Positions 5,357-39,948 of a stretch of DNA of 41,492 nt are shown here, one piece after another. Position numbers and translations under genes: made by a program. The notes under the pieces are model-generated. The model ran no database searches. It was not told where the DNA came from and saw only the letters and a program-made list of their open reading frames with translations. The stretch's first letter is position 1. Each line of letters begins with the position of its first letter. Location: assembly GCA_003599055.1 (NCBI GenBank), contig QZIM01000005.1:1-41492 (forward strand), written 5' to 3'. The stretch is from Candidatus Woesearchaeota archaeon. Its GTDB lineage: Archaea > Nanobdellota > Nanobdellia > Woesearchaeales > ARS49.

Positions 5357-7921
5357 ATGGTAAAGGACCCGTCTTGCGGTATGGATGTGAATCCGGTTAC
5401 GGCGAGGTTTAAGCTGCAAAAAGAGGGCCAAACGTTTTATTTCTGCAGTAAGGATTGTGAGGACAAGTTTGCGGGCGCGGGTAAGAAAGTGCAAATCCCG
5501 ATAAGTGGGATGCGCTGTGCGAGTTGTGTGCAAAAGATTGAGGGCGCGTTAAGAAAGGTTGGAGGCGTGAAGAGTGCAAGTGTGAATTTTGCCGCAAGCA
5601 AGGCGTTTGTCGAGTTTGACCCGCAGCTGGTTTCTGAGGAAATGCTGAAAGGTGCAATTAAGCAGTCAGGGTATGAGACGGAAGCGCACGCAAAAGAGGC
5701 AAAAGGGAAAGTTACGCTTGCAATTTCGGGGATGGAGAGCGCGCATTGCCAAAATATTGTTGAGCAATCGTTGCAAAGAGTGCCGGGTGTTGCGTCGGTG
5801 AAGGTGAATTTGGCAACTGCGCGTGCGGAAGTTTCAGGTGAGGTTTCTGCGGATGCGCTTATCGCGGCAGTGAAGGCGGCAGGGTATGGTGCCGCGCTTG
5901 CGGATACTGAGCGGGATGTGCGTGAGGCAGAGGTTCGGTATTGGAAGGTGCGCACGCTTGTTGCGGGAGTGTTTGGTGTTCCGTTGCTTTATCTTGCAAT
6001 GGGGCATATGGTGGGCTTGCCGCTTCCGCATTTGGGTGAAAAGCTGGTCGCGTTTTTGCAGTTTGCGCTTGCAACGCCGATTGTGCTTGCGGGCGGTTCT
6101 TTTTACACAAACGGCCTTCGCGCGCTGGTCAACCGTTTGCCGAATATGGATAGTTTGGTGGCAATAGGAACAGGAGCGGCGTATGTCTATAGTTTATTTG
6201 TTGCCGTGATGCTTGTTTTTGGGGCAAAAGGGTATGCTGCGGATATGTTGTATTTTGAGATTGCGGGGCTTATTGTCGCGTTCATCCTCCTTGGAAAGCT
6301 GCTTGAGGCGGTTGCAAAGGGTAAGACGTCGGAGGCGGTAAAGAAGCTGCTGAAGTTGCAGGCAAAGACCGCAATTGTTCTGAGGGGAAAGGAAGAAGTG
6401 GAGATTCCAATTGAGGAAGTAAAGGCAGGAGATGTGCTGGTGGTAAAGCCGGGGATGAAAGTTCCGGTGGATGGGGTTGTTCTTTCGGGCGCATCAAGTG
6501 TTGATGAGAGTATGATGACCGGGGAAAGTATTCCGGTTGAGAAGGTGGCCGGGGCAAAGGTGATTGGCGGAACGGTGAATAAGACGGGGTCGTTTACGTT
6601 TCGGGCAACAAAGGTAGGGAGCGAGACGGTTCTTGCGCAGATTGTGCGGATGGTGGAGGAGGCGCAGGGGAGCAAGGCGCCGATTCAGGATTTGGCGGAT
6701 AAGATTGCGTATTATTTTGTGCCTGCGGTGATGCTGATTGCTGCTGCCGCGTTTGTGTCGTGGTGGGCGTTTGGCAGCACGATGCTTGCGCTGACGGCGT
6801 TTATTGCCGTGTTAATCATTGCGTGCCCGTGCGCGCTTGGGCTTGCAACGCCGACGGCAATTATGGTGGGGACGGGGCGGGCGGCCGAGTTTGGTATTTT
6901 GTTTAAGGATGCGGAGAGCGTGCAAAAGGTGCGTGATGTGCAGGCGGTTATTTTTGATAAGACGGGTACGCTGACCAAAGGCAAGCCGGAAGTGACGGAT
7001 GTGGTGCCGGTTGGGAAGGCAAAGGAGGATGGTGTTCTGCAGCTTGCGGCGATTGTGGAGAAGCGAAGTGAGCACCCGCTTGCGGATGCGATTGTGCGCA
7101 GGGCAAAAGAGAAGGGGCTTGCTGTTCCGCAAGCGGCGCATTTTGAGTCGTTCACCGGGGAAGGTGTTTCGGCAAGGTATGCGGCAAAGACGATTTTGCT
7201 GGGGAATCGGAAATTGATGGAATCGCACAAAATTGTGACGGAAAAATGTGAAGGCAGGATGCAGCAGCTTGAGGCGGAAGGGAAGACCGTGGTTTTTGTT
7301 GCGGCATCAAGGCAGGTCGTTGGGCTTATTGCGGTTCGTGATGAGCTTAAGCCCTTTGCAAAGGAAGCGGTGGCTGCGCTCAAAAAGTCAGGGAAGAAGG
7401 TGTTTATGATGACGGGCGATAATGAGCGGACGGCAGAGGCGATTGCAAAAGAGGCAGGAATTGAGAATGTGTTTGCGCAAGTGTTGCCGAATCAGAAGGC
7501 AGACAAGGTGAAGGAGCTGCAGCAAAAGGGGCTGAAGGTTGCAATGGTGGGCGATGGGATTAATGATGCTCCTGCGCTGACGCAGGCGGATGTGGGGATT
7601 GCGATTGGGAGCGGGACGGATATTGCAATTGAGGCGGGAAATGTAGTGTTGGTAAAAAATGATGTTCGTGATGTTGTGGCTTCAATTGAGCTGAGCCAAA
7701 GGACGATGCGCAAGATTAAGCAGAACTTGTTTTGGGCGTTTGCGTATAATGTGATTTTGATTCCGGTTGCGGCAGGCGCGCTGTACCCCTTGACGGGCTG
7801 GCTGTTAAGTCCCGTGCTTGCCGGCGTCGCAATGGCGCTCTCAAGTGTAAGCGTGGTGTCGAACAGCCTGCTGCTCAAAAGATATAAGCCAAAGCTGGCA
7901 AAGGCAGTGCCGATGCCTTGA
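5357..7921 (+). CDS. copA: P1B-type copper-transporting ATPase with YHS and two HMA domains
   Basis: 854-residue heavy-metal P-type ATPase. Domain order: an N-terminal YHS domain (DPSCGMDV ... [12 protein letters not shown], residues 4-40), HMA1 (GMRCASC, about 52-110), HMA2 (about 117-180), then the transporter core. HMA2 has GMESAHC where GMxCxxC is expected, so one metal-binding cysteine is missing. The core has the metal-site CPC ([14 protein letters not shown]), phosphorylated Asp in [13 protein letters not shown] actuator motif, SEHPLADAI nucleotide-binding motif and [10 protein letters not shown] hinge. This is a Cu+ exporter by family; the YHS domain may sense or deliver metal. It is transcribed from its own TATA box, and the downstream HicBA system is separate. 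Confidence 0.95.
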
Positions 7922-15377: not shown

Positions 15378-16268
15378 ATGTCTGATGAAACAGTTATGTT
15401 CTATTTTTGGCATCACGGGGCGAGGTTAGGGGAGCCGCATTTTCGTGTAAATATTGCTGAATTGAGGACGCCGCAATTTGAGCAGTTGGCAGCAAGGGCG
15501 GATGTTCTTTTTGAAGAGTTGGTGATGGAGCGGGAAAGGGATGCGGACGAGTTTGAGGAACTAATGAATCGCTCGTTTAAGGGCGAGAGAATCAAAAATG
15601 ATGCGCTGCCGATTTATTACGATGAGGAGAAGCAGGAATATTTGTCACGGGTTTTTCAGGGGAAGAAGTACGTGGTTGAGCGGACGTTTGCCCCGCAAAG
15701 GGATTTGCTCGCAATGCAGAATGCAGACAGGATAACGTATTTGCGGCTGATTGCGGGCCCGATTGATGATGCGTTACGGGCGCGTGAGACCGTGCTGCGT
15801 ATTGATGCGCGGGTTCAGGCCGAGCGCGAGGAGAGGGTTGCGCGTCAGATTGGTGCAGTGCCCGGCAGGGTTCTCGTACTTTTTGGCGGCGGTCATCGGG
15901 AGCTTGCAGGGATTGTGGGCAAAAAGCGGCCGATAGAAGTGTATGCTCCGTTTGAGGGAACTGCGGAAACGTATGAAACGCTGCTGCGAAGGAAGTTGCG
16001 GGAAGGGGTTTTTGATGCGGATTTGTGCTTGCGTTCGGCAGTGGAGCTTATTGTTGATGGCGCGGCAGGGCTTGATGGGCTAAAGAGGAAGCAGGTTGCG
16101 CACGCATACGCAGGAGCGTTGGAATCCGCGCAATTGCGTGATTTTCTTGAGTACGCAAATAGGGTTGCCGCAATGGGCCTCTCCGCAAGAGATATTGTCT
16201 CATCGTATATCAAGAGCAGAAATGTGCCGCTTGCAAAAGACGTGCGGGAAATGCTTACTTCACAATGA
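15378..16268 (+). CDS. Unknown protein, possibly TraB/Tiki-like
   Basis: 296 residues, soluble. A central charged region resembles the TraB/PrgY superfamily: APQRDLLAMQNADRITYLRL, then RVLVLFGGGHRELAGIVGKK, comparable with the family's ERDxxMA and VVGxGHxxG blocks. The N-terminal GxxH or E motifs of true Tiki peptidases are not obvious (there is FYFWHHGARLGEPHF near residue 8), so this is only a suggestion. The C-terminus is helical. The ATG at 15378 is 27 nt after the centre of CTTTTAAATAA (15346-15356). It overlaps the convergent lipoprotein gene by 14 nt. Confidence 0.65.
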   Translation: MSDETVMFYFWHHGARLGEPHFRVNIAELRTPQFEQLAARADVLFEELVMERERDADEFEELMNRSFKGERIKNDALPIYYDEEKQEYLSRVFQGKKYVVERTFAPQRDLLAMQNADRITYLRLIAGPIDDALRARETVLRIDARVQAEREERVARQIGAVPGRVLVLFGGGHRELAGIVGKKRPIEVYAPFEGTAETYETLLRRKLREGVFDADLCLRSAVELIVDGAAGLDGLKRKQVAHAYAGALESAQLRDFLEYANRVAAMGLSARDIVSSYIKSRNVPLAKDVREMLTSQ

Positions 16269-16683
16269 GTTTTCCTTCAAGGCCTTTGTTGCCTTCGCTG
16301 TAGAAGAGGAATGTTCCTTCGCGGTCTGCTAAGAACTCAATGTCAACATCTTCGCCGACAGGGAGTGGCTCGTCAATGCCAAAGCTTGGCATGGTGAATC
16401 GCTGGGGGATGTCTATTGCGGTGACGCGCAAGGAGACGTAGTTGCCTTTTTGGACCGTGATTTCGGATGGCAGGAAGTCTGCGCGGGTGGCTTCGATTTC
16501 GTGCTTGACCGTGGTTTGTGTGGATGTGGGTGATGTTGGCGGGGGCTCGTAGCGCGGCTTGTCGGGAAGCGGCTGCGGAACGCCAACGTCAATATTGGGA
16601 ATCGGGCGCGGGTTTGCGGGCTCGATGCGCGTGCAGGAAATGGCAAGGGCAAGGAGCAAGAGGAGTGCGATTTTTTTCATCAT
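16255..16683 (-). CDS. Lipoprotein with degenerate cupredoxin domain
   Basis: 142-residue predicted lipoprotein: a lipobox signal peptide (MMKKIALLLLLALAISC, Cys at 17), a Pro/Thr-rich linker, then a cupredoxin-like domain with the COX2/plastocyanin pattern (FLPSEITVQKGNYVSLRVTA, then IDIPQRFTMPSFGI, then REGTFLFYSEGNKGLEGKLI). At the positions where copper ligands His, Cys, His and Met would sit, the sequence has Gln, Ser, Asn/Lys and Leu. It should not bind copper and is probably a structural or scaffold variant. It follows lgt by 25 nt and has its own TATA-like CGTTTAAATACC (about 16705-16716). The domain is by visual homology. Confidence 0.75.
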   Translation of the reverse strand: MMKKIALLLLLALAISCTRIEPANPRPIPNIDVGVPQPLPDKPRYEPPPTSPTSTQTTVKHEIEATRADFLPSEITVQKGNYVSLRVTAIDIPQRFTMPSFGIDEPLPVGEDVDIEFLADREGTFLFYSEGNKGLEGKLIVK

Positions 16684-30936: not shown

Positions 30937-31143
30937 TTACCCCTCATTACTATTTAAGTCTTGCGTGCAGAGTTTTGCATCAATGGTGGCGTCACCGCAC
31001 ACGCACACGGCGTCATCGCACGTGCAGGGTTTGTTGTTGAGGGTGCAGGTGACTGCGGCAGTGGGTGTTGGCGGCTCATAAAATACGGCAACGCCGATGA
31101 GAAGGCCAAGGAAGAAGGCAGTGATGAGGATGCGCGGGTTCAT
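30937..31143 (-). CDS. Small secreted cysteine-rich protein
   Basis: 68 residues: an N-terminal anchor or signal helix (ILITAFFLGLLIGVAVFY, about 5-22), a Pro/Thr linker, then a compact Cys-rich tail with seven cysteines (CTLNNKPCTCDDAVCVCG ... KLC). Possible metal- or disulfide-bonded knot. Its ATG overlaps the stop of the thioredoxin-like gene upstream (ATGA), implying that the thioredoxin-like protein handles its disulfides (inference). Confidence 0.72.
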   Translation of the reverse strand: MNPRILITAFFLGLLIGVAVFYEPPTPTAAVTCTLNNKPCTCDDAVCVCGDATIDAKLCTQDLNSNEG

Positions 31144-31490
31144 TGAATCACCCGGGCAAGGCGCTCTGCGCTTTGGTATCCGTACAGCACGGTTCCGTTG
31201 ATGATGAAGCTGGGGGTTCCCATAATGCGGTTCGGTGCTGCGGCAAACGCGCAAAAGTCTGCGTTGTATTCTTCAATAAGGAAGGTGTTGCCGTGTGTTC
31301 GCGCAAGTTCTTCGAGTGCGGGTTTTTGTCCCCAGCACGCAACGCACAGGGGTGAGCTGAAGTATGTGATGGTGTTTGAGGAGTTGCTGCCATACGTGCG
31401 CGAGGGGCATTCTGCTGCGGCAATGGCGGGAAGATAGGTGAGCGCAAGGACGAGCGCGATGAGGAGTCCGAAGGCGAGGAAGAAGTGCAT
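31140..31490 (-). CDS. Secreted thioredoxin-like protein
   Basis: 116 residues: a signal helix (FFLAFGLLIALVLALTYL), then a thioredoxin-like domain with active site CVAC in ITYFSSPLCVACWGQKPALE (about 53-58), two further cysteines and a cis-proline block MGTPSFIINGTVLYGY. Extracytoplasmic disulfide chemistry is likely. ATG 31490 follows TATA-like CATTTATTAG (complement of about 31510-31519), which lies back-to-back with the purO promoter. Co-transcribed with the Cys-rich 68-residue protein. Confidence 0.85.
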   Translation of the reverse strand: MHFFLAFGLLIALVLALTYLPAIAAAECPSRTYGSNSSNTITYFSSPLCVACWGQKPALEELARTHGNTFLIEEYNADFCAFAAAPNRIMGTPSFIINGTVLYGYQSAERLARVIQ

Positions 31491-34115: not shown

Positions 34116-35267
34116 TTATTCTTCAACGGTCGGCGCGCTTATTTCCGCTTCTTCCTGCGGAATTGAGCTCACCATAATCTCGCCGGAAGTAAGGTTGCGG
34201 TAGGATATGGGTGTTCCAAGGGCGCGTTCGATAACGGCGATGTTTCGTGCAACGAGTGCGCCGTCTTTTTCGACAGTGCCGATTTGGTTCCAGACTTGGG
34301 CAACAACAGGGTAGATGTTGGCGTCACTGCTGGCAACGACCGTGGGCACAAGCTCGATTGCGTATTTTTTGATGAGTAGTTTGCCGCGTGCGCTGGTGAC
34401 ATCAACGGTTTTGGCGTCGCGGAGTTTCATGTTAAGGCCGACCGCAAAGAGTTCTTCAAGGATGCTTGCGTTGTAGCATTCAGTGCATTTTTCGTCGGTG
34501 ATGAGTGTTAAGTCGACAAGCCCTTCGGTTTTGCCGGAGGTGACGTTCACGTACGGCGGGTAGACGGAGCGCAAAACGAGCTTGCCGTCGTTTTCAACCG
34601 TTCCGACCTCAGCCCAAATGTCAGAGATGAGCGGGTATTCGAGCGAGTCGTTGCTCATAATGAGGGTTGGCAGGCGTTCAATGGTGTATTTGGCGATGAG
34701 TGCCTTGCCTTCTTCGCTTTGTGATGAGACTGTTTTTTGTGAGGTGACGGCGATGCCGTTTTCTTTGAATTGGTCAAGGACTTGGGTGAGGTTAAAGCAG
34801 TCCGGGCAGTTGGGGGCGGAAAGGACGGTGAGCGTGACTTGGCCGCGGGTTTTTTTGGTCGCAACGTCATAGTACGGCGCGGGTGCCTGGTCGAACACGA
34901 GTGCGTCTTGGCGTTTGTCAAAATTGTCAATGGTGAGGTTGTCTGTTTCGCCAAGGACAAGGACTGCAGGGTATCGCGCAACTGCGTAGGTTGCGGCAAG
35001 TTCTTCGCTTTCCGCGATGGTTTTGTTTTCAACAGAAGTGATGTTGACGCTTGGCTGTCCTGCAAGGAATGCAAGTGCTGCTTGGGGGTTCCAGCAGTCG
35101 GTGCAGTCTGAGCCAAGAACCAGGATGCGCAGCTCAAGGAGTTCGGGTGCAGCGGGTGCTTGGGGTGTTGGGACAGAGAGGGTAAGATACAGGCTGACGC
35201 CCATAACGATAAGGAGGAGTGCGATGAGGTAGGTGTTGATGTCTTTGAGCGCGTGTTTCTTTTTCAT
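34116..35267 (-). CDS. Membrane-anchored protein with three tandem thioredoxin-like domains
   Basis: 383 residues: a basic start, one transmembrane helix (about 11-31), then three repeated thioredoxin-like units facing the outside. Each has a CxxC active site, CTDCWN (Cys 55/58), CPDCFN (154/157) and CTECYN (261/264), and each a proline-containing partner block: ARYPAVLV, ERLPTLIM, ELVPTVVA. Linkers also repeat (WAEVGTVENDGKLVLRS and WNQIGTVEKDGALVARN). The repetition shows internal duplication. Likely a multi-site disulfide carrier. It ends the transcript that starts at 36371. A GGAGGG ribosome-binding-like site precedes the ATG. Confidence 0.85.
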   Translation of the reverse strand: MKKKHALKDINTYLIALLLIVMGVSLYLTLSVPTPQAPAAPELLELRILVLGSDCTDCWNPQAALAFLAGQPSVNITSVENKTIAESEELAATYAVARYPAVLVLGETDNLTIDNFDKRQDALVFDQAPAPYYDVATKKTRGQVTLTVLSAPNCPDCFNLTQVLDQFKENGIAVTSQKTVSSQSEEGKALIAKYTIERLPTLIMSNDSLEYPLISDIWAEVGTVENDGKLVLRSVYPPYVNVTSGKTEGLVDLTLITDEKCTECYNASILEELFAVGLNMKLRDAKTVDVTSARGKLLIKKYAIELVPTVVASSDANIYPVVAQVWNQIGTVEKDGALVARNIAVIERALGTPISYRNLTSGEIMVSSIPQEEAEISAPTVEE

Positions 35268-35356
35268 AAGTGTCAGCCCTCCGGGAAGGGGTATTTATGC
35301 TTTTAGATTCTTGCCAATACCCAATTACAAATAACAAAAAAGCCAAAAACTGTTTC

Positions 35357-35563
35357 TCAACACCCGCCGACCATGGATGGCAGGTTTTGCAGGTTGCTGG
35401 GCAGTTGCGGGTTGCTTGCGCCGGTTCCCGCCTGTGCGGTTGCCGTGGTGCTGTATTGGCCTTGTGCCAGTGTGTTCTTAAGGGAGAACAGCTGGAACGC
35501 CTGGACTCCTGCGATGAGCACGAGTGCGCCGAGCACGATTGCAATGACAACGTTCTTGTTCAT
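35357..35563 (-). CDS. Small anchored protein ending in MVGGC
   Basis: 68 residues: one N-terminal transmembrane helix (VVIAIVLGALVLIAGVQAF), a short stretch resembling the neighbour's (QAFQLFSLK), an Ala/Thr/Gly/Gln-rich linker, and the C-terminus NLPSMVGGC. The same last five residues end the next protein (35643-36371). The only cysteine is the last residue. It is preceded by a GGAGGT ribosome-binding site (about 35567-35573). Function unknown; the shared C-terminal cysteine suggests processing or redox capture. Confidence 0.78.
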   Translation of the reverse strand: MNKNVVIAIVLGALVLIAGVQAFQLFSLKNTLAQGQYSTTATAQAGTGASNPQLPSNLQNLPSMVGGC

Positions 35564-35642
35564 GGGATACCTCCGTATGATTTTTTGTAAATGGAACCAA
35601 CCACTATCTACTAACTACTAACTACCAACCGCCAATAACCGC

Positions 35643-36371
35643 TTAGCATCCTCCGACCATTGCCGGGGCGTCTGCAAGGACGCTTGCGTCTCCGCCGACG
35701 AGTTTCACGCCGATTTCAACCATGTTTTTGGGGAACCAGAGTGTTTTCCAGCGGAGTGCTTCGCGAAGGACTTCCGCATCGGTCATGTCGGTGTTTTTCA
35801 TAAGGTAGAGGGTGATTGCGTGGATTGCGGGCGCGTGTGAGCAGCCGCAGGTGAGTTGGCCTTGGTTTGTTATTGAGACCGGTCCGACGCCGCAGCAGTA
35901 TTCGCAGCTGATGCCGACGGGCTTGGTTGCAAGGTTGATATAGCGTTGCCAGACGTCGGGGTTGTTTTGCTGGACGTCCTGCTTGATTGCAGGGTAGAGT
36001 TTGTATGCGAGGAACTGGAGTGCGGTGACCGGGTCATCGTAGCTGATGCCAAGGTCCTTGCCGTAGTCAGGGGTTCCCTGGGGTATCATTGCATCGATGA
36101 CGCCTTGGGCGTCTTTTGCTTCGGAGAGGTCGATGACTGCGGCGACGCTTTGTGCGGAGCTTTTGATGCTGTTGATGTCAACCGAGCTAAGGTCGGGATT
36201 GGAAAGGACGGCAACCCTGCTCGTGGTTCCGCCAAGTGTGGTTGGCGCGCCAAGGGACGAGCTGAGTTGGAAGAGCTGGATTTGGTTGAAGAGGATGAGG
36301 ACTGCTGCAATGGCAATGACCCAGACCATCGGGCCGCTGAACGTGTCGTCGTTTTGGTTTTGTTTTTTCAT
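35643..36371 (-). CDS. Anchored Cys/His-rich protein ending in MVGGC
   Basis: 242 residues: a transmembrane helix (about 15-35), an extracytoplasmic helical region, then a Cys/His cluster: Cys 156, 159, 160 (ISCEYCCG), Cys 175 and 177 (TCGCSHA), and His 179 and 184. This resembles PCYCGC-type metal- or disulfide-binding segments. A helical block TDMTDAEVLREALRWKTLWF follows. The final residues are PAMVGGC, shared with the neighbouring 68-residue protein. The function is unknown; membership of an envelope thiol system is inferred from neighbours. TATA-like CCTTAAATATTAAAG lies about 40 nt upstream. Confidence 0.78.
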   Translation of the reverse strand: MKKQNQNDDTFSGPMVWVIAIAAVLILFNQIQLFQLSSSLGAPTTLGGTTSRVAVLSNPDLSSVDINSIKSSAQSVAAVIDLSEAKDAQGVIDAMIPQGTPDYGKDLGISYDDPVTALQFLAYKLYPAIKQDVQQNNPDVWQRYINLATKPVGISCEYCCGVGPVSITNQGQLTCGCSHAPAIHAITLYLMKNTDMTDAEVLREALRWKTLWFPKNMVEIGVKLVGGDASVLADAPAMVGGC

Positions 36372-36415
36372 AGGGGAACACCCGAACTTTTACATTTGGT
36401 GAAATGCTTTAATAT

Positions 36416-37405
36416 TTAAGGTTTATGGATGCGTGAGTCGGAAAAGTATGCGCGGTAAATTGAGCGTACCATAATGAAGAGGAGGGTAAGGGCGATGGCT
36501 GCACCGATGAGGTTTGCCGTCGTGCCGGTCCAAAATGTGCTTGCGACAACGGATTCATTGATGCGGGTGAAAAAGCTCATGGTCCAGGGAATGTATTTGG
36601 GAATTTCATTCATAAAGACGCGGGTTCCTGCAAATGCAACCATAACGATTCCGACAAGTGCAAGGATGATTCCGCCGATGATGCCGTAAAGGTGGGTGTG
36701 GATGGTGTGGCGAAAGAGGGTGAATTGGACGTGCCTGCTGGTGATGTATTTGCTGAAGTCATAGCGGTCGGAAAAGTACGAGACGATGAGAAGGGGAAGC
36801 GTGACGCCAAGGGCGTAGCTGCCGAAAAGGAGGGTTGCGGATAGGACGTTTGCCGTGTTTGCGGCAAGGAGGAGGACGCCGCCAAGGATAGGACCAACAC
36901 ACGGGGTCCAGCCGATGGCAAAGAAGAATCCCAAAAGAAGCGAGCCAAGCCCGTCTTTTGGCTGGTGCTTGATGCGAAAGTCAACAAAGCCAAAGCCGGT
37001 GTTAAGGGCGAGCATAATGCCGAACAGGATGAGGACGAGTCCGGAAAGTGTTGCGAAGAATTCTTTGTAAATGTTAAAGAAGTCGCCGACGAGCCCTGCG
37101 ATAATGCCGAAAATGACGAATGCAATAATCATGCCAAGCGAGAAGAGTGAGGTCATAAGGAATGCGCGTTTGCGTTCTTTGAAGAGGTAGCTAAAGAATG
37201 TGGGGATGACGACAAATCCGCACGGGGAGGTGAAGGTGAGGATGCCGCCAAGGAATGCGATAAGAAGGGTGATGGAGTGGGCGAGTTGGTCTTGGTATTC
37301 CTGAAGTTTGATGATGCCGGGAGGGAAGACGACGTCCTGTGCGGCAGCGGTTGTAGCAAGGAGAATGCCAAAAACCAAGAACCAACCGCCAACAACGCGT
37401 CTCAT
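36416..37405 (-). CDS. CcdA/DsbD-family transmembrane thiol reductant transporter
   Basis: 329-residue membrane protein. An N-terminal signal (to about 22) precedes a CcdA-like core of about six helices with the two reactive-Cys motifs: TFTSPCGFVVIPTF (about 55-68) and AIGWTPCVGPILGG (about 168-181). Typically such a protein passes electrons from cytoplasmic thioredoxin to extracytoplasmic thiol proteins. Two further helices near the C-terminus are extra. It starts inside the stop of the small Cys-rich lipoprotein gene (ATGA). Confidence 0.9.
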   Translation of the reverse strand: MRRVVGGWFLVFGILLATTAAAQDVVFPPGIIKLQEYQDQLAHSITLLIAFLGGILTFTSPCGFVVIPTFFSYLFKERKRAFLMTSLFSLGMIIAFVIFGIIAGLVGDFFNIYKEFFATLSGLVLILFGIMLALNTGFGFVDFRIKHQPKDGLGSLLLGFFFAIGWTPCVGPILGGVLLLAANTANVLSATLLFGSYALGVTLPLLIVSYFSDRYDFSKYITSRHVQFTLFRHTIHTHLYGIIGGIILALVGIVMVAFAGTRVFMNEIPKYIPWTMSFFTRINESVVASTFWTGTTANLIGAAIALTLLFIMVRSIYRAYFSDSRIHKP

Positions 37406-37626
37406 GCGAACGTTTTATACTCCTCCCGCGTGCAAATATGGTTTCGTTCGTTTGGCATACAGCCATAGCAGGATGGCCCGATTATTTTTCCGTCTTTCAT
37501 TTCGTTCATGAGCATCCAGGGATTGTTGTCTTGGTCGCAGAGCGATTTATATTCTTGCTGTTCGGAAGTGAGCTGTTCTTCTGCGCAGGCGGCAAGGATG
37601 AGCAGCAAAAGGGCAACCCGTTTCAT
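37402..37626 (-). CDS. Small cysteine-rich lipoprotein
   Basis: 74 residues: a lipobox signal peptide (MKRVALLLLILAAC, Cys 14) and a mature part with four further cysteines (SLCDQDNN, SCYGC, NHIC). ATG 37626 is chosen because it begins exactly at a lipoprotein signal peptide; the longer frame adds a basic leader. Likely metal- or disulfide-bound. Coupled to the CcdA-like gene by an ATGA overlap, so a redox partner role is plausible. Confidence 0.75.
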   Translation of the reverse strand: MKRVALLLLILAACAEEQLTSEQQEYKSLCDQDNNPWMLMNEMKDGKIIGPSCYGCMPNERNHICTREEYKTFA

Positions 37627-37689
37627 ATTTGTGTCAGCGAATCTTCTCTTTTTATGTCTTGTGAACAAAGTTTTACAAAAAGTGTAAAA

Positions 37690-38223
37690 TTATGTCTTTC
37701 GTCTCCAAAGGAAGGACAAAAGAAGGATGAGCGCAAAGGCGGTGAATGCCATAAGCGGGATGGTGACGAATCCGAATTGGACGAATTCCGTGCTCATACA
37801 GGATACGCCGTTTGCCGCACAAGCATCAGAAACATTCACTCTTGCCATGCCAAGGACGTGGAGACCATAATGGTATGCGGAAATGCTGCCGCCGATGATG
37901 CTGAGGGGAATGGTAAAGAGGGTTGCGTCTTTCATTTTGCGCAAGGCAGCGATGCCGAGGATAAGTGCTTGCGGGTACATAAAGATGCGCTGGTACCAGC
38001 AGAGCCTGCAGGGGAAGAATCCGCTGTACTCGTAGAGAAAGAGGGAGCCGAGTGTTGCGGTTGCGGCGACGATGAATGCAAGGGTTCCCGCGCGCGGTCC
38101 GAAAAAGCGCAAGATGCGCTCACGTTTAAGTGCCCAGCTTGCAATGCCGAAGAGAAGGCACGCAATGCCGATAAGGGTGAGCGAGCTGAATATCCAAATG
38201 CCGATGGTGGTGATTGTTGTCAT
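37690..38223 (-). CDS. dsbB: DsbB-family disulfide oxidoreductase
   Basis: 177-residue, four-helix membrane protein. The first pair FFPCRLCWYQRIFMYP is the DsbB signature (CxxCWxQR). The second pair DACAANGVSC is in the second loop. DsbB oxidises thiol oxidoreductases such as DsbA, passing electrons to quinone; NDH-2 in this window uses the same pool. ATG 38223 overlaps the stop of the thioredoxin lipoprotein gene (ATGA). Opposite in direction of electron flow to the CcdA-like protein next door. Confidence 0.93.
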   Translation of the reverse strand: MTTITTIGIWIFSSLTLIGIACLLFGIASWALKRERILRFFGPRAGTLAFIVAATATLGSLFLYEYSGFFPCRLCWYQRIFMYPQALILGIAALRKMKDATLFTIPLSIIGGSISAYHYGLHVLGMARVNVSDACAANGVSCMSTEFVQFGFVTIPLMAFTAFALILLLSFLWRRKT

Positions 38224-38558
38224 GCGGGGAGTTGGCACCCTGTTTTTTGTGCAAGGGTTGCAAGCTGTTGTGTTCCGGTGACGCGCGAGCCGTCGGCGAA
38301 TACCCAGGTCGGATAATTGGTGATGTTCATGCTGTTGCAAACAGCGGTCTGTCCGCTGCGGTCAGGAAGGGAACACTCAACATAATCAATGTTTTTGATG
38401 CTTGAGCCAAAGAGCTGTTTTTGGTTGGCGCAGTGCGGGCACCAGAACGCGCCGTAGAAGGTTGCGCCGGAGTCAGTGACGCATTGCGCGAACGGGTCGA
38501 GTTTGCTCGAGCACGCGGCAAGGAAGAGGAGCAGCATAAGTCCGATTGTTTTTTTCAT
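38220..38558 (-). CDS. Thioredoxin-like lipoprotein (VKOR-associated type)
   Basis: 112 residues: a lipobox signal peptide (MKKTIGLMLLLFLAAC), then a thioredoxin fold with active site CPHC in FYGAFWCPHCANQKQLFG (about 40-43) and the form seen in domains fused to VKOR: YVECSLPD ... C, then ITNYPTWVF, then a C-terminal GC. Probably the DsbA-like partner of the DsbB encoded by the next gene, and anchored by a lipid. Coupled on both sides by ATGA overlaps. Confidence 0.9.
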   Translation of the reverse strand: MKKTIGLMLLLFLAACSSKLDPFAQCVTDSGATFYGAFWCPHCANQKQLFGSSIKNIDYVECSLPDRSGQTAVCNSMNITNYPTWVFADGSRVTGTQQLATLAQKTGCQLPA

Positions 38559-38785
38559 CGTTTCACCCCTGCAATGGTTATGGCAAGACCGGTAAGAGCA
38601 ATGGCAAGGCCCACGGTTTGGTGTGTGTCGTGGCTGCCGTGTGTATCGTGTCCGTGGTCGTGTGCATCAGCCGTTTCGTGGACAAAATAGCCAAGGGCTG
38701 CGTTGTGGGAGTCGTGCGGGAGCAGGCTGAATGCAAGTCCGCCAAAAAGCAATACTGCGCCGATTGCAAGGAGTATTTTGTTCAT
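38555..38785 (-). CDS. Small membrane protein with His-rich loop
   Basis: 76 residues with two transmembrane helices (LLAIGAVLLFGGLAFSLL and LAIALTGLAITIAGV) flanking an extracytoplasmic His/Asp-rich loop (HETADAHDHGHDTHGSHDTH) that should bind transition metal ions such as Zn, Cu or Ni. First gene of the thioredoxin-lipoprotein/DsbB operon. Two 15-bp inverted repeats (38800-38814, 38858-38872) lie upstream, between it and the BlaI-like repressor gene. Confidence 0.8.
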   Translation of the reverse strand: MNKILLAIGAVLLFGGLAFSLLPHDSHNAALGYFVHETADAHDHGHDTHGSHDTHQTVGLAIALTGLAITIAGVKR

Positions 38786-38872: not shown

Positions 38873-38905
38873 AGAATTTAAGTGCGGCACTCTTTCTGTG
38901 CGGGT

Positions 38906-39250
38906 ATGAAAGAAACCGTTGCCGATTTTGATGCGCTTCTCTCTCCGCTTGAGGGAGATGTTCTGTCAGTGCTCTGGCCGAATCGGAAGCTTCGCGTTCG
39001 GGAGATTCATCAAAGGCTCAAAAGAAAGGTTGCCGTGAGCAGTGTTGCGGTGATTTTGGACCGGCTGCACGATAAGGGGGTTGTGGGCAGGAGTGAGGAG
39101 ACGGCAAGGGGCGGTGTTCGGTATGTGTATTTCCCGCTGCAGGACCGCCAGTCGTTTGAAAAGTCTGTTGTGGAAAAGACGGTCAATAAGCTCATTGATG
39201 CGTTTGGGCACTCGGCAGTTTCCTATTTTAACGAACGGTTTAAGAGGTGA
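38906..39250 (+). CDS. BlaI/MecI/CopY-family winged-helix repressor
   Basis: 114 residues, family length. The N-terminal winged helix is typical: LSPLEGDVLSVLWPNRKLRV, then REIHQRLKRKVAVSSVAVIL, then DRLHDKGVVGRSEE, then the wing RYVYFPL. A C-terminal dimerisation helix follows (about 80-114). Such repressors are inactivated by cleavage or metal binding. ATG 38906 is 28 nt after the centre of GAATTTAAG. The start codon of the M56-like protease overlaps its stop (ATGA-like, 39247-39250). Confidence 0.87.
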   Translation: MKETVADFDALLSPLEGDVLSVLWPNRKLRVREIHQRLKRKVAVSSVAVILDRLHDKGVVGRSEETARGGVRYVYFPLQDRQSFEKSVVEKTVNKLIDAFGHSAVSYFNERFKR

Positions 39251-39948
39251 ATATGGTTGCGTTTGCAGGCGCGTTGGCATTTTTGGCTGACCCGCAAAAG
39301 ATGTTGGTGGTGACGAGTTCGGCGATTGTTGCAGTGCTCTTGCTGCTCGCGTGGAGGCGGTTTGAGAGGCCGGCAATTTTGTACGCGCACGTTTTTTTTG
39401 TCCTCTCGCCGCTGTTTTATTTTGCCCTGTCCGTTAATTGCAGTTTTGGGGTGCTGAACGGTTTTCTTTCGTGGTGTACGGCGCTGTTTGCAAAGTTTGT
39501 GCTGTACGGCATTCCGCCTGTTCTTGCACTCTCAATCATTTGCGGGTATTTGGTGCTTCCGCAGGTGCACCGTCTTGCCGCGCGGCCGATGAAAACAGGG
39601 ATGTTTGCAAAATTGTGTAAGAGGACGAATATTCGGGCAGGCCTGTTTGTTCGAAAGAGCGGGATTCCTGAGGCATTCACAATCGGAAGGGATATTTTTG
39701 TGAGCGTGGGCCTTTTTGATGTGCTCACGGCAAAGGAAGTGGAGGCGGTTTTGCTGCACGAACTGTATCACGTGAGGTCAGGCGCGTCGGCAAGGAAGTG
39801 GAGTGTGCTGACTGCGCGGGTGTTCTCGCCGATTGCGTGGTTTGGCGCGGCGCTGTCGGAAGAAGAGGAGCGGAATGCCGATGCGTTTGCGGCGATGGTG
39901 CAGCGCTCATCAAGGTATGTGAAGTCTGCGCGCGCGAAACTTTCTTAA
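39247..39948 (+). CDS. M56/M48-like membrane metalloprotease (BlaR1-like)
   Basis: 233 residues: about four N-terminal transmembrane helices, then a metalloprotease domain with HELYH (HExxH, about 176-180 in AVLLHELYHVRS) and a downstream EEERNADAFA that supplies the third ligand, as in BlaR1/HtpX-type enzymes. It lacks a sensor domain. It is encoded with the BlaI-like repressor, so by analogy to BlaR1/BlaI it may cleave the repressor upon a surface signal. Unusual in archaea. Confidence 0.85.
   Translation: MNMVAFAGALAFLADPQKMLVVTSSAIVAVLLLLAWRRFERPAILYAHVFFVLSPLFYFALSVNCSFGVLNGFLSWCTALFAKFVLYGIPPVLALSIICGYLVLPQVHRLAARPMKTGMFAKLCKRTNIRAGLFVRKSGIPEAFTIGRDIFVSVGLFDVLTAKEVEAVLLHELYHVRSGASARKWSVLTARVFSPIAWFGAALSEEEERNADAFAAMVQRSSRYVKSARAKLS

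Follow-up and report, generated by a model that had tools for sequence, protein, structure and literature searches.

Why do two anchored proteins of different length, encoded side by side in an archaeal genome, end in exactly the same five residues? The question is raised by a stretch of 41,492 nucleotides (nt), hereafter called the window, from contig QZIM01000005.1 of Candidatus Woesearchaeota archaeon (GCA_003599055.1). Two minus-strand genes of the window encode a protein of 242 amino acids (aa; LONG, 35643–36371), with a transmembrane (TM) anchor, a helical domain and the tail APAMVGGC, and a protein of 68 aa (SHORT, 35357–35563), with an N-terminal TM anchor, a variable linker and the tail LPSMVGGC; the MVGGC codons lie at 35646–35660 and 35360–35374, respectively. 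The initial annotation of this locus had noted the common ending MVGGC and an N-terminal TM segment in both proteins, and both features are confirmed (hydropathy of the segments 2.2 and 2.7); by the lipobox test neither window protein is a lipoprotein, as there is no cysteine at the N-terminal TM segment of either. Here, we describe two protein families with a C-terminal motif that is limited to the pair, changes in concert in both partners and recurs in a characteristic gene context. We propose, with the chances evenly poised, that LONG and SHORT form the core of an extracytoplasmic module for thiols and soft metals, most likely copper, in DPANN archaea, in which the tails dock and hand over.

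Is the common ending more than coincidence? We scanned 57 related genomes and 371 genomes of the host phylum, mostly metagenome-assembled, for MVGGC followed by a stop codon, using a pattern that also permitted TGG and its reverse as a control. Among the relatives, MVGGC-stop occurs in 25 of 57 genomes, exactly those that encode a LONG homologue, and all 53 sites close with TAA, TAG or TGA, while the reversed control gives none; across the phylum, 99 of 371 genomes carry the motif and the reversed pattern matches 3. The ending is therefore not due to chance, and the enrichment in relatives that the initial annotation had proposed to look for is present in both genome sets. LONG is encoded in 102 phylum genomes, including all 99 with MVGGC-stop; two of the other three (G063 and G339) have QVGGC on both proteins, and the third (G120) has one divergent protein with the end LPSIVGEC. 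Sites in the relatives nearly always lie side by side in a single LONG/SHORT locus, the few lone ones being found at contig ends or in loci whose LONG has no tail, and MVGGC termini are confined to the LONG/SHORT pair, in genomes encoding LONG. The common tail exceeds five residues, reading approximately L-x-x-L-P-x-M-V-G-G-C; nearly all LONG and SHORT proteins end in LPxMVGGC, with cysteine as the last residue in 154 of 154 listed tails.

A contig search for LONG extended the family to 80 loci labelled Woesearchaeota, Pacearchaeota, Aenigmatarchaeota, Micrarchaeota, Altiarchaeota, Diapherotrites, Nanoarchaeota or Nanohaloarchaeota. Three further loci (L204, L228 and L181) are on contigs labelled Patescibacteria or bacterium, which may be misbinned DPANN sequences or reflect transfer. 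At one locus (L005; G004:C28:7488 and 7988), each MVGGC stop is followed by a second, out-of-frame stretch ending in SLVGGC-stop, possibly a local duplication. Within our partial coverage of the literature, 'MVGGC' turned up in unrelated contexts only.

What keeps the two tails alike? In three lineages, L194 (Micrarchaeum), L201/L229 (one genome) and L231, both LONG and SHORT end in QVGGC. For both proteins, the nearest relatives of L231, one of which belongs to the same genus, carry MVGGC. The nearest relatives of L229 and L194 likewise do so, and on the LONG tree L194 and L201 require two separate changes. Among the LONG/SHORT loci examined, no pair had M on one protein and Q on the other; L233 combines MVGAC on LONG with MVGGC on SHORT. 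The joint change from methionine to glutamine in three lineages is our strongest evidence that the tails of LONG and SHORT must meet a common partner. The tails are not equally persistent: both are present in 106 of the 119 distinct LONG loci, LONG is tail-less beside a tailed SHORT in 12, and a LONG tail without SHORT is found in only one, at a contig edge. The constant part is the tail of SHORT.

Neither window protein belongs to a Pfam or NCBIfam family when profile scores are compared with the curated cut-offs, and no convincing assignment was obtained for LONG across 25 homologues. LONG has no sequence match (best E 1.8) and no fold match (best E 2.3) in the PDB. The AlphaFold2 (AF2) model of LONG shows an all-helical domain with a mean predicted local distance difference test (pLDDT) score of 87 and a disordered tail with a pLDDT below 50. 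Six residues are invariant in the homologue alignment, namely C156, C159, C160, C175, C177 and H179 (window numbering), and the N-tails of LONG are rich in histidine (8.3% versus 0.8%), with at least four histidines in 15 of 65. LONG is suggestive of PCYCGC proteins, but PF13798 is not among the matches of the 25 members. SHORT, compared over 60 homologues, is conserved only in its anchor and in LP(x)MVGGC; outside the near-invariant tail, column identity averages 33–35% in both families. The two proteins had initially been described as differing in length and sequence, of which the difference in length stands (242 versus 68 aa), but not the lack of sequence kinship, as the TM anchors match by profile (hhalign 96%, E 5e-9, 32 columns) and the common tail spans approximately 11 residues. 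Given the related anchors, LONG and SHORT may be paralogues, in which case LONG may have gained its domain by insertion or SHORT may have lost it. No known family or motif class testable here accommodates the pair or its motif.

In which surroundings is the pair found? Across approximately 88 LONG loci, a triple thioredoxin-like protein (TRX3) is encoded in 67, always on the strand of LONG and at a median of 2 genes away, and CcdA in 56, with LONG-SHORT-TRX3-CcdA as the usual order. This bears out the initial view of MVGGC as a genuine functional signal associated with thioredoxin and CcdA genes. Both genes are also associated with the tails among the 57 relatives (TRX3, p 1.2e-5; CcdA, p 0.001; Fisher p values, here and below, computed without regard to genome relatedness). 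Beyond the initial annotation, we find a copper gene context: cupredoxin genes occur in 22 of these loci, CopG/DUF411 in 18 and Cu-ATPase genes in 14, and 19 of 25 cupredoxins from LONG loci have the CuA-type motif CxxxCGxxHxxM. A multicopper oxidase is a neighbour in G054, and CopG is even placed between LONG and SHORT in L195, L200 and L202 (order LONG-CopG-SHORT-TRX3). Among the relatives, CopG is present in 14 of 57 genomes, every one tail-bearing (p 5.8e-7), and a Cu-ATPase scores above cut-off in 22 of 25 tail-bearing versus 16 of 32 other genomes (p 0.004).

Six LONG proteins (L184, L187, L196, L200, L202 and L211) carry a fused polytopic membrane domain whose family is undescribed and has two invariant cysteines, both in GCPxC; tail-less LONG proteins are also found fused to it. 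Standalone members of the family adjoin Cu-ATPase genes, and in G000 and G004 (G000:C14 and G004:C46) family members lie between Cu-ATPase and cupredoxin genes. The model of this domain is of low confidence around GCPxC and gave no usable PDB match. As an obligate partner of the pair the GCPxC protein was rejected, since it is present in only 14 of 57 genomes, some of which lack the pair. Two other neighbours are a sensor-like membrane protein of about 580 aa (L164:7930–9669), which adjoins LONG in 13 loci, and MerT-HMA fusions, encoded near LONG in L105, L106, L109 and L173, where a mercury role is possible.

How could the pair function in such surroundings? In the copper and thiol module that we propose, the N-terminal helix would tether LONG and SHORT to the membrane, presumably with an outward topology, and both would have a flexible arm with an identical recognition tail, (L)PxMVGGC, at its tip. 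This tail would dock at one common site, presenting its terminal cysteine thiolate, with the core of LONG and TRX3 as first candidates for the docking partner. The likeliest use would be that Cu(I) is passed among the single-cysteine arm of SHORT, the Cys/His site of LONG, and CopG or a CuA cupredoxin, where we infer copper as the ligand as well as the hand-over and its direction. TRX3 and CcdA would, by analogy, maintain the thiols in a reduced state, and DsbB together with a thioredoxin-like lipoprotein would serve oxidation. We extend this more tentatively, at somewhat less than even chances, to a new kind of metal and thiol routing, in which the identical cysteine tails would be a private docking-and-transfer peptide, read by one partner and maintained across DPANN phyla by concerted evolution, and LONG would be a metal-site protein with a new fold.

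Several observations weigh against this proposal. Metal binding by LONG and SHORT is predicted from sequence and gene context, and the change to glutamine weakens the idea that methionine is needed as a metal ligand. Cu-ATPases are also frequent in relatives that lack the pair. The genome-wide distribution of cupredoxins is not co-extensive with that of the pair, by which we rejected cupredoxin as an obligate partner, and the CuA-related, cupredoxin-like lipoprotein frame of the window (16255–16671, minus strand) no longer has the cysteines and histidine of CuA. TRX3 and CcdA are missing from some tail-bearing genomes. Attempts to place the tail were negative as well: no TRX3 residue tracks the M/Q change in the two lineages compared, leaving no candidate column for TRX3 as the tail receptor, and in the AF2 model the tail is not seen docked on the domain of LONG itself. 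Given the MerT-like neighbours, the metal may instead be mercury or another soft metal.

Could the tails serve thiol chemistry alone? In a pure thiol-disulfide relay, the tail cysteine would carry electrons or be a substrate thiol, forming mixed disulfides with TRX3 or LONG; CcdA would supply the electrons, DsbB would act as oxidant, and metals would be mere neighbours. The constancy and position of TRX3, the most regular neighbour, would fit such a relay, as would the presence of CcdA, DsbB and a small thioredoxin in the operon, and a flexible tail with a single cysteine is suited to mixed-disulfide chemistry; disulfide capture by the tail, one of the functions considered initially, is possible in this sense. 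However, a lone cysteine cannot do the work of a dithiol, the five invariant cysteines and the histidine of LONG resemble a metal site, copper genes are recurrent, with CopG found only in the tail-bearing relatives, and matches to TRX3 or CcdA are lacking in some tail-bearing genomes. We consider a relay without metal unlikely, though worth serious attention.

A single modifying enzyme would also explain why two exported proteins have the same terminal sequence and change it in concert, in line with the initial idea of a processing or lipid-attachment signal; in this view, a dedicated enzyme would recognise the C-terminus for processing, lipidation or attachment to the surface. As the tail is used by this pair only and both proteins are already anchored in the membrane, a general sorting or lipid signal is unlikely; moreover, there is no C-terminal TM segment or basic cluster of sortase type, and we found no enzyme whose distribution follows that of the motif. 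This part of the initial annotation is not supported, and we regard a dedicated signal as improbable. Two specific forms were rejected: CaaX prenylation, because in all the listed tails the cysteine is terminal and not four residues from the C-terminus, and an archaeosortase-type sorting signal, because the cysteine is last, a C-terminal TM segment is absent and only this pair is concerned. Finally, the matching anchors and tails could point to paralogues in which an ancestral tail persists without any shared role. Such passive retention is hard to reconcile with a near-invariant tail on proteins of otherwise low column identity, or with tails that went from M to Q together and left no mixed pairs, and is very improbable; descent may explain the origin of the tails, but not their maintenance.

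The module around the pair resembles copper and thiol systems of the Scs kind. In the Scs system (ScsB/ScsC/ScsD), a membrane electron carrier of the DsbD/CcdA kind and reduced envelope thioredoxin-fold proteins contribute to copper tolerance, ScsB holding ScsC reduced and ScsC binding Cu(I) with subpicomolar affinity (PMC8900818). CcdA and TRX3 likewise combine a membrane thiol reductant with a thioredoxin-fold partner in a copper context, although we do not claim membership: they are separate archaeal proteins, and Scs has no LONG- or SHORT-like protein or common C-terminal cysteine tail. CopG (DUF411) is a cysteine-rich copper protein of the envelope, as LONG may be, and its genes share operons with LONG, but its thioredoxin fold holds a tetranuclear copper cluster (PMC7558416), whereas LONG is all-helical, has a C-x2-CC...CGC-x-H site and gave no PF04214 match in 25 members at E <= 10. 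CutF-like proteins are similarly small, exported and encoded beside multicopper oxidase or copper genes, and their function needs a conserved C-terminus (PMC8456105); a CXXXC motif and a proline-rich end set CutF apart from SHORT with its single terminal cysteine. Archaeosortase and sortase signals are conserved C-terminal motifs on exported archaeal proteins too, but the tails of the pair lack a C-terminal TM segment or basic tail, occur in two families only and have cysteine last. The cupredoxins of many LONG/SHORT loci resemble the CuA-type 'nosZ-like' cupredoxins reported in DPANN from oxygen-deficient zones (PMC10936187), which would be clients or partners of the module and not homologues of LONG or SHORT.

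In the window, the eight adjacent minus-strand genes of the operon (34116–38785) lie where the initial annotation placed them. TRX3 (34116–35267), anchored and with three thioredoxin-like repeats (CTDC, CPDC and CTEC; Pfam Thioredoxin_3 and Thioredoxin_2), has two domains above cut-off (PF13098 and PF13192), the CTEC repeat being recognised by eye only, and is likely the thiol reductase of the module. Beyond SHORT and LONG follow CcdA, a DsbD transmembrane domain of the reducing branch (36416–37405; PF02683 46.5 bits, cut-off 27.1), a small Cys-rich lipoprotein with lipobox LAAC (37402–37626) and homologues in related loci (cluster 26), and the oxidising DsbB/BdbC (37690–38223; PF02600 42.3 bits, cut-off 22.1; NCBIfam NF002849 120.5 bits, below its cut-off of 124), so that both proposed branches of an envelope disulfide pathway are supported above Pfam cut-offs. 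A thioredoxin-like lipoprotein with CPHC and a lipobox (38220–38558; weak PF00085, 19.8 bits versus cut-off 23.5) is the probable partner of DsbB, and the last gene encodes a small His-rich membrane protein (38555–38785), relatives of which adjoin MerT-HMA genes in other loci (clusters 29 and 30).

Divergent from the operon, on the plus strand, are a BlaI/CopY-type repressor (38882–39250; PF03965 59.5 bits; CopY 29.9 bits, below cut-off 122) and, paired with it, an M48/M56-type membrane protease (39247–39948; PF01435 29.4 bits). The repressor occurs in 17 related loci, never on the strand of LONG, and the protease likewise in 17, always divergent; from this arrangement, it is possible that the two regulate the LONG operon. 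Elsewhere in the window are a Cu-type P-ATPase with an N-terminal YHS-like stretch (5357–7921, plus strand; TIGR01511 643.5 bits, above cut-off) and a small Cys-rich anchored protein beside a thioredoxin-like protein with CVAC (30937–31490, minus strand), kept downstream of TRX3 in near relatives.

In conclusion, two undescribed families and an undescribed C-terminal motif are present in about a quarter of the sampled phylum genomes and in several DPANN groups, and their conservation points to a surface function in organisms thought to be poor in envelope systems. The concerted change from M to Q amounts to a natural experiment, since any binder of the tail has to tolerate either residue; the partner could thus be traced through co-variation and peptide binding. 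If the pair indeed handles copper, it may explain the maturation of CuA 'nosZ-like' proteins in DPANN of oxygen-deficient waters.

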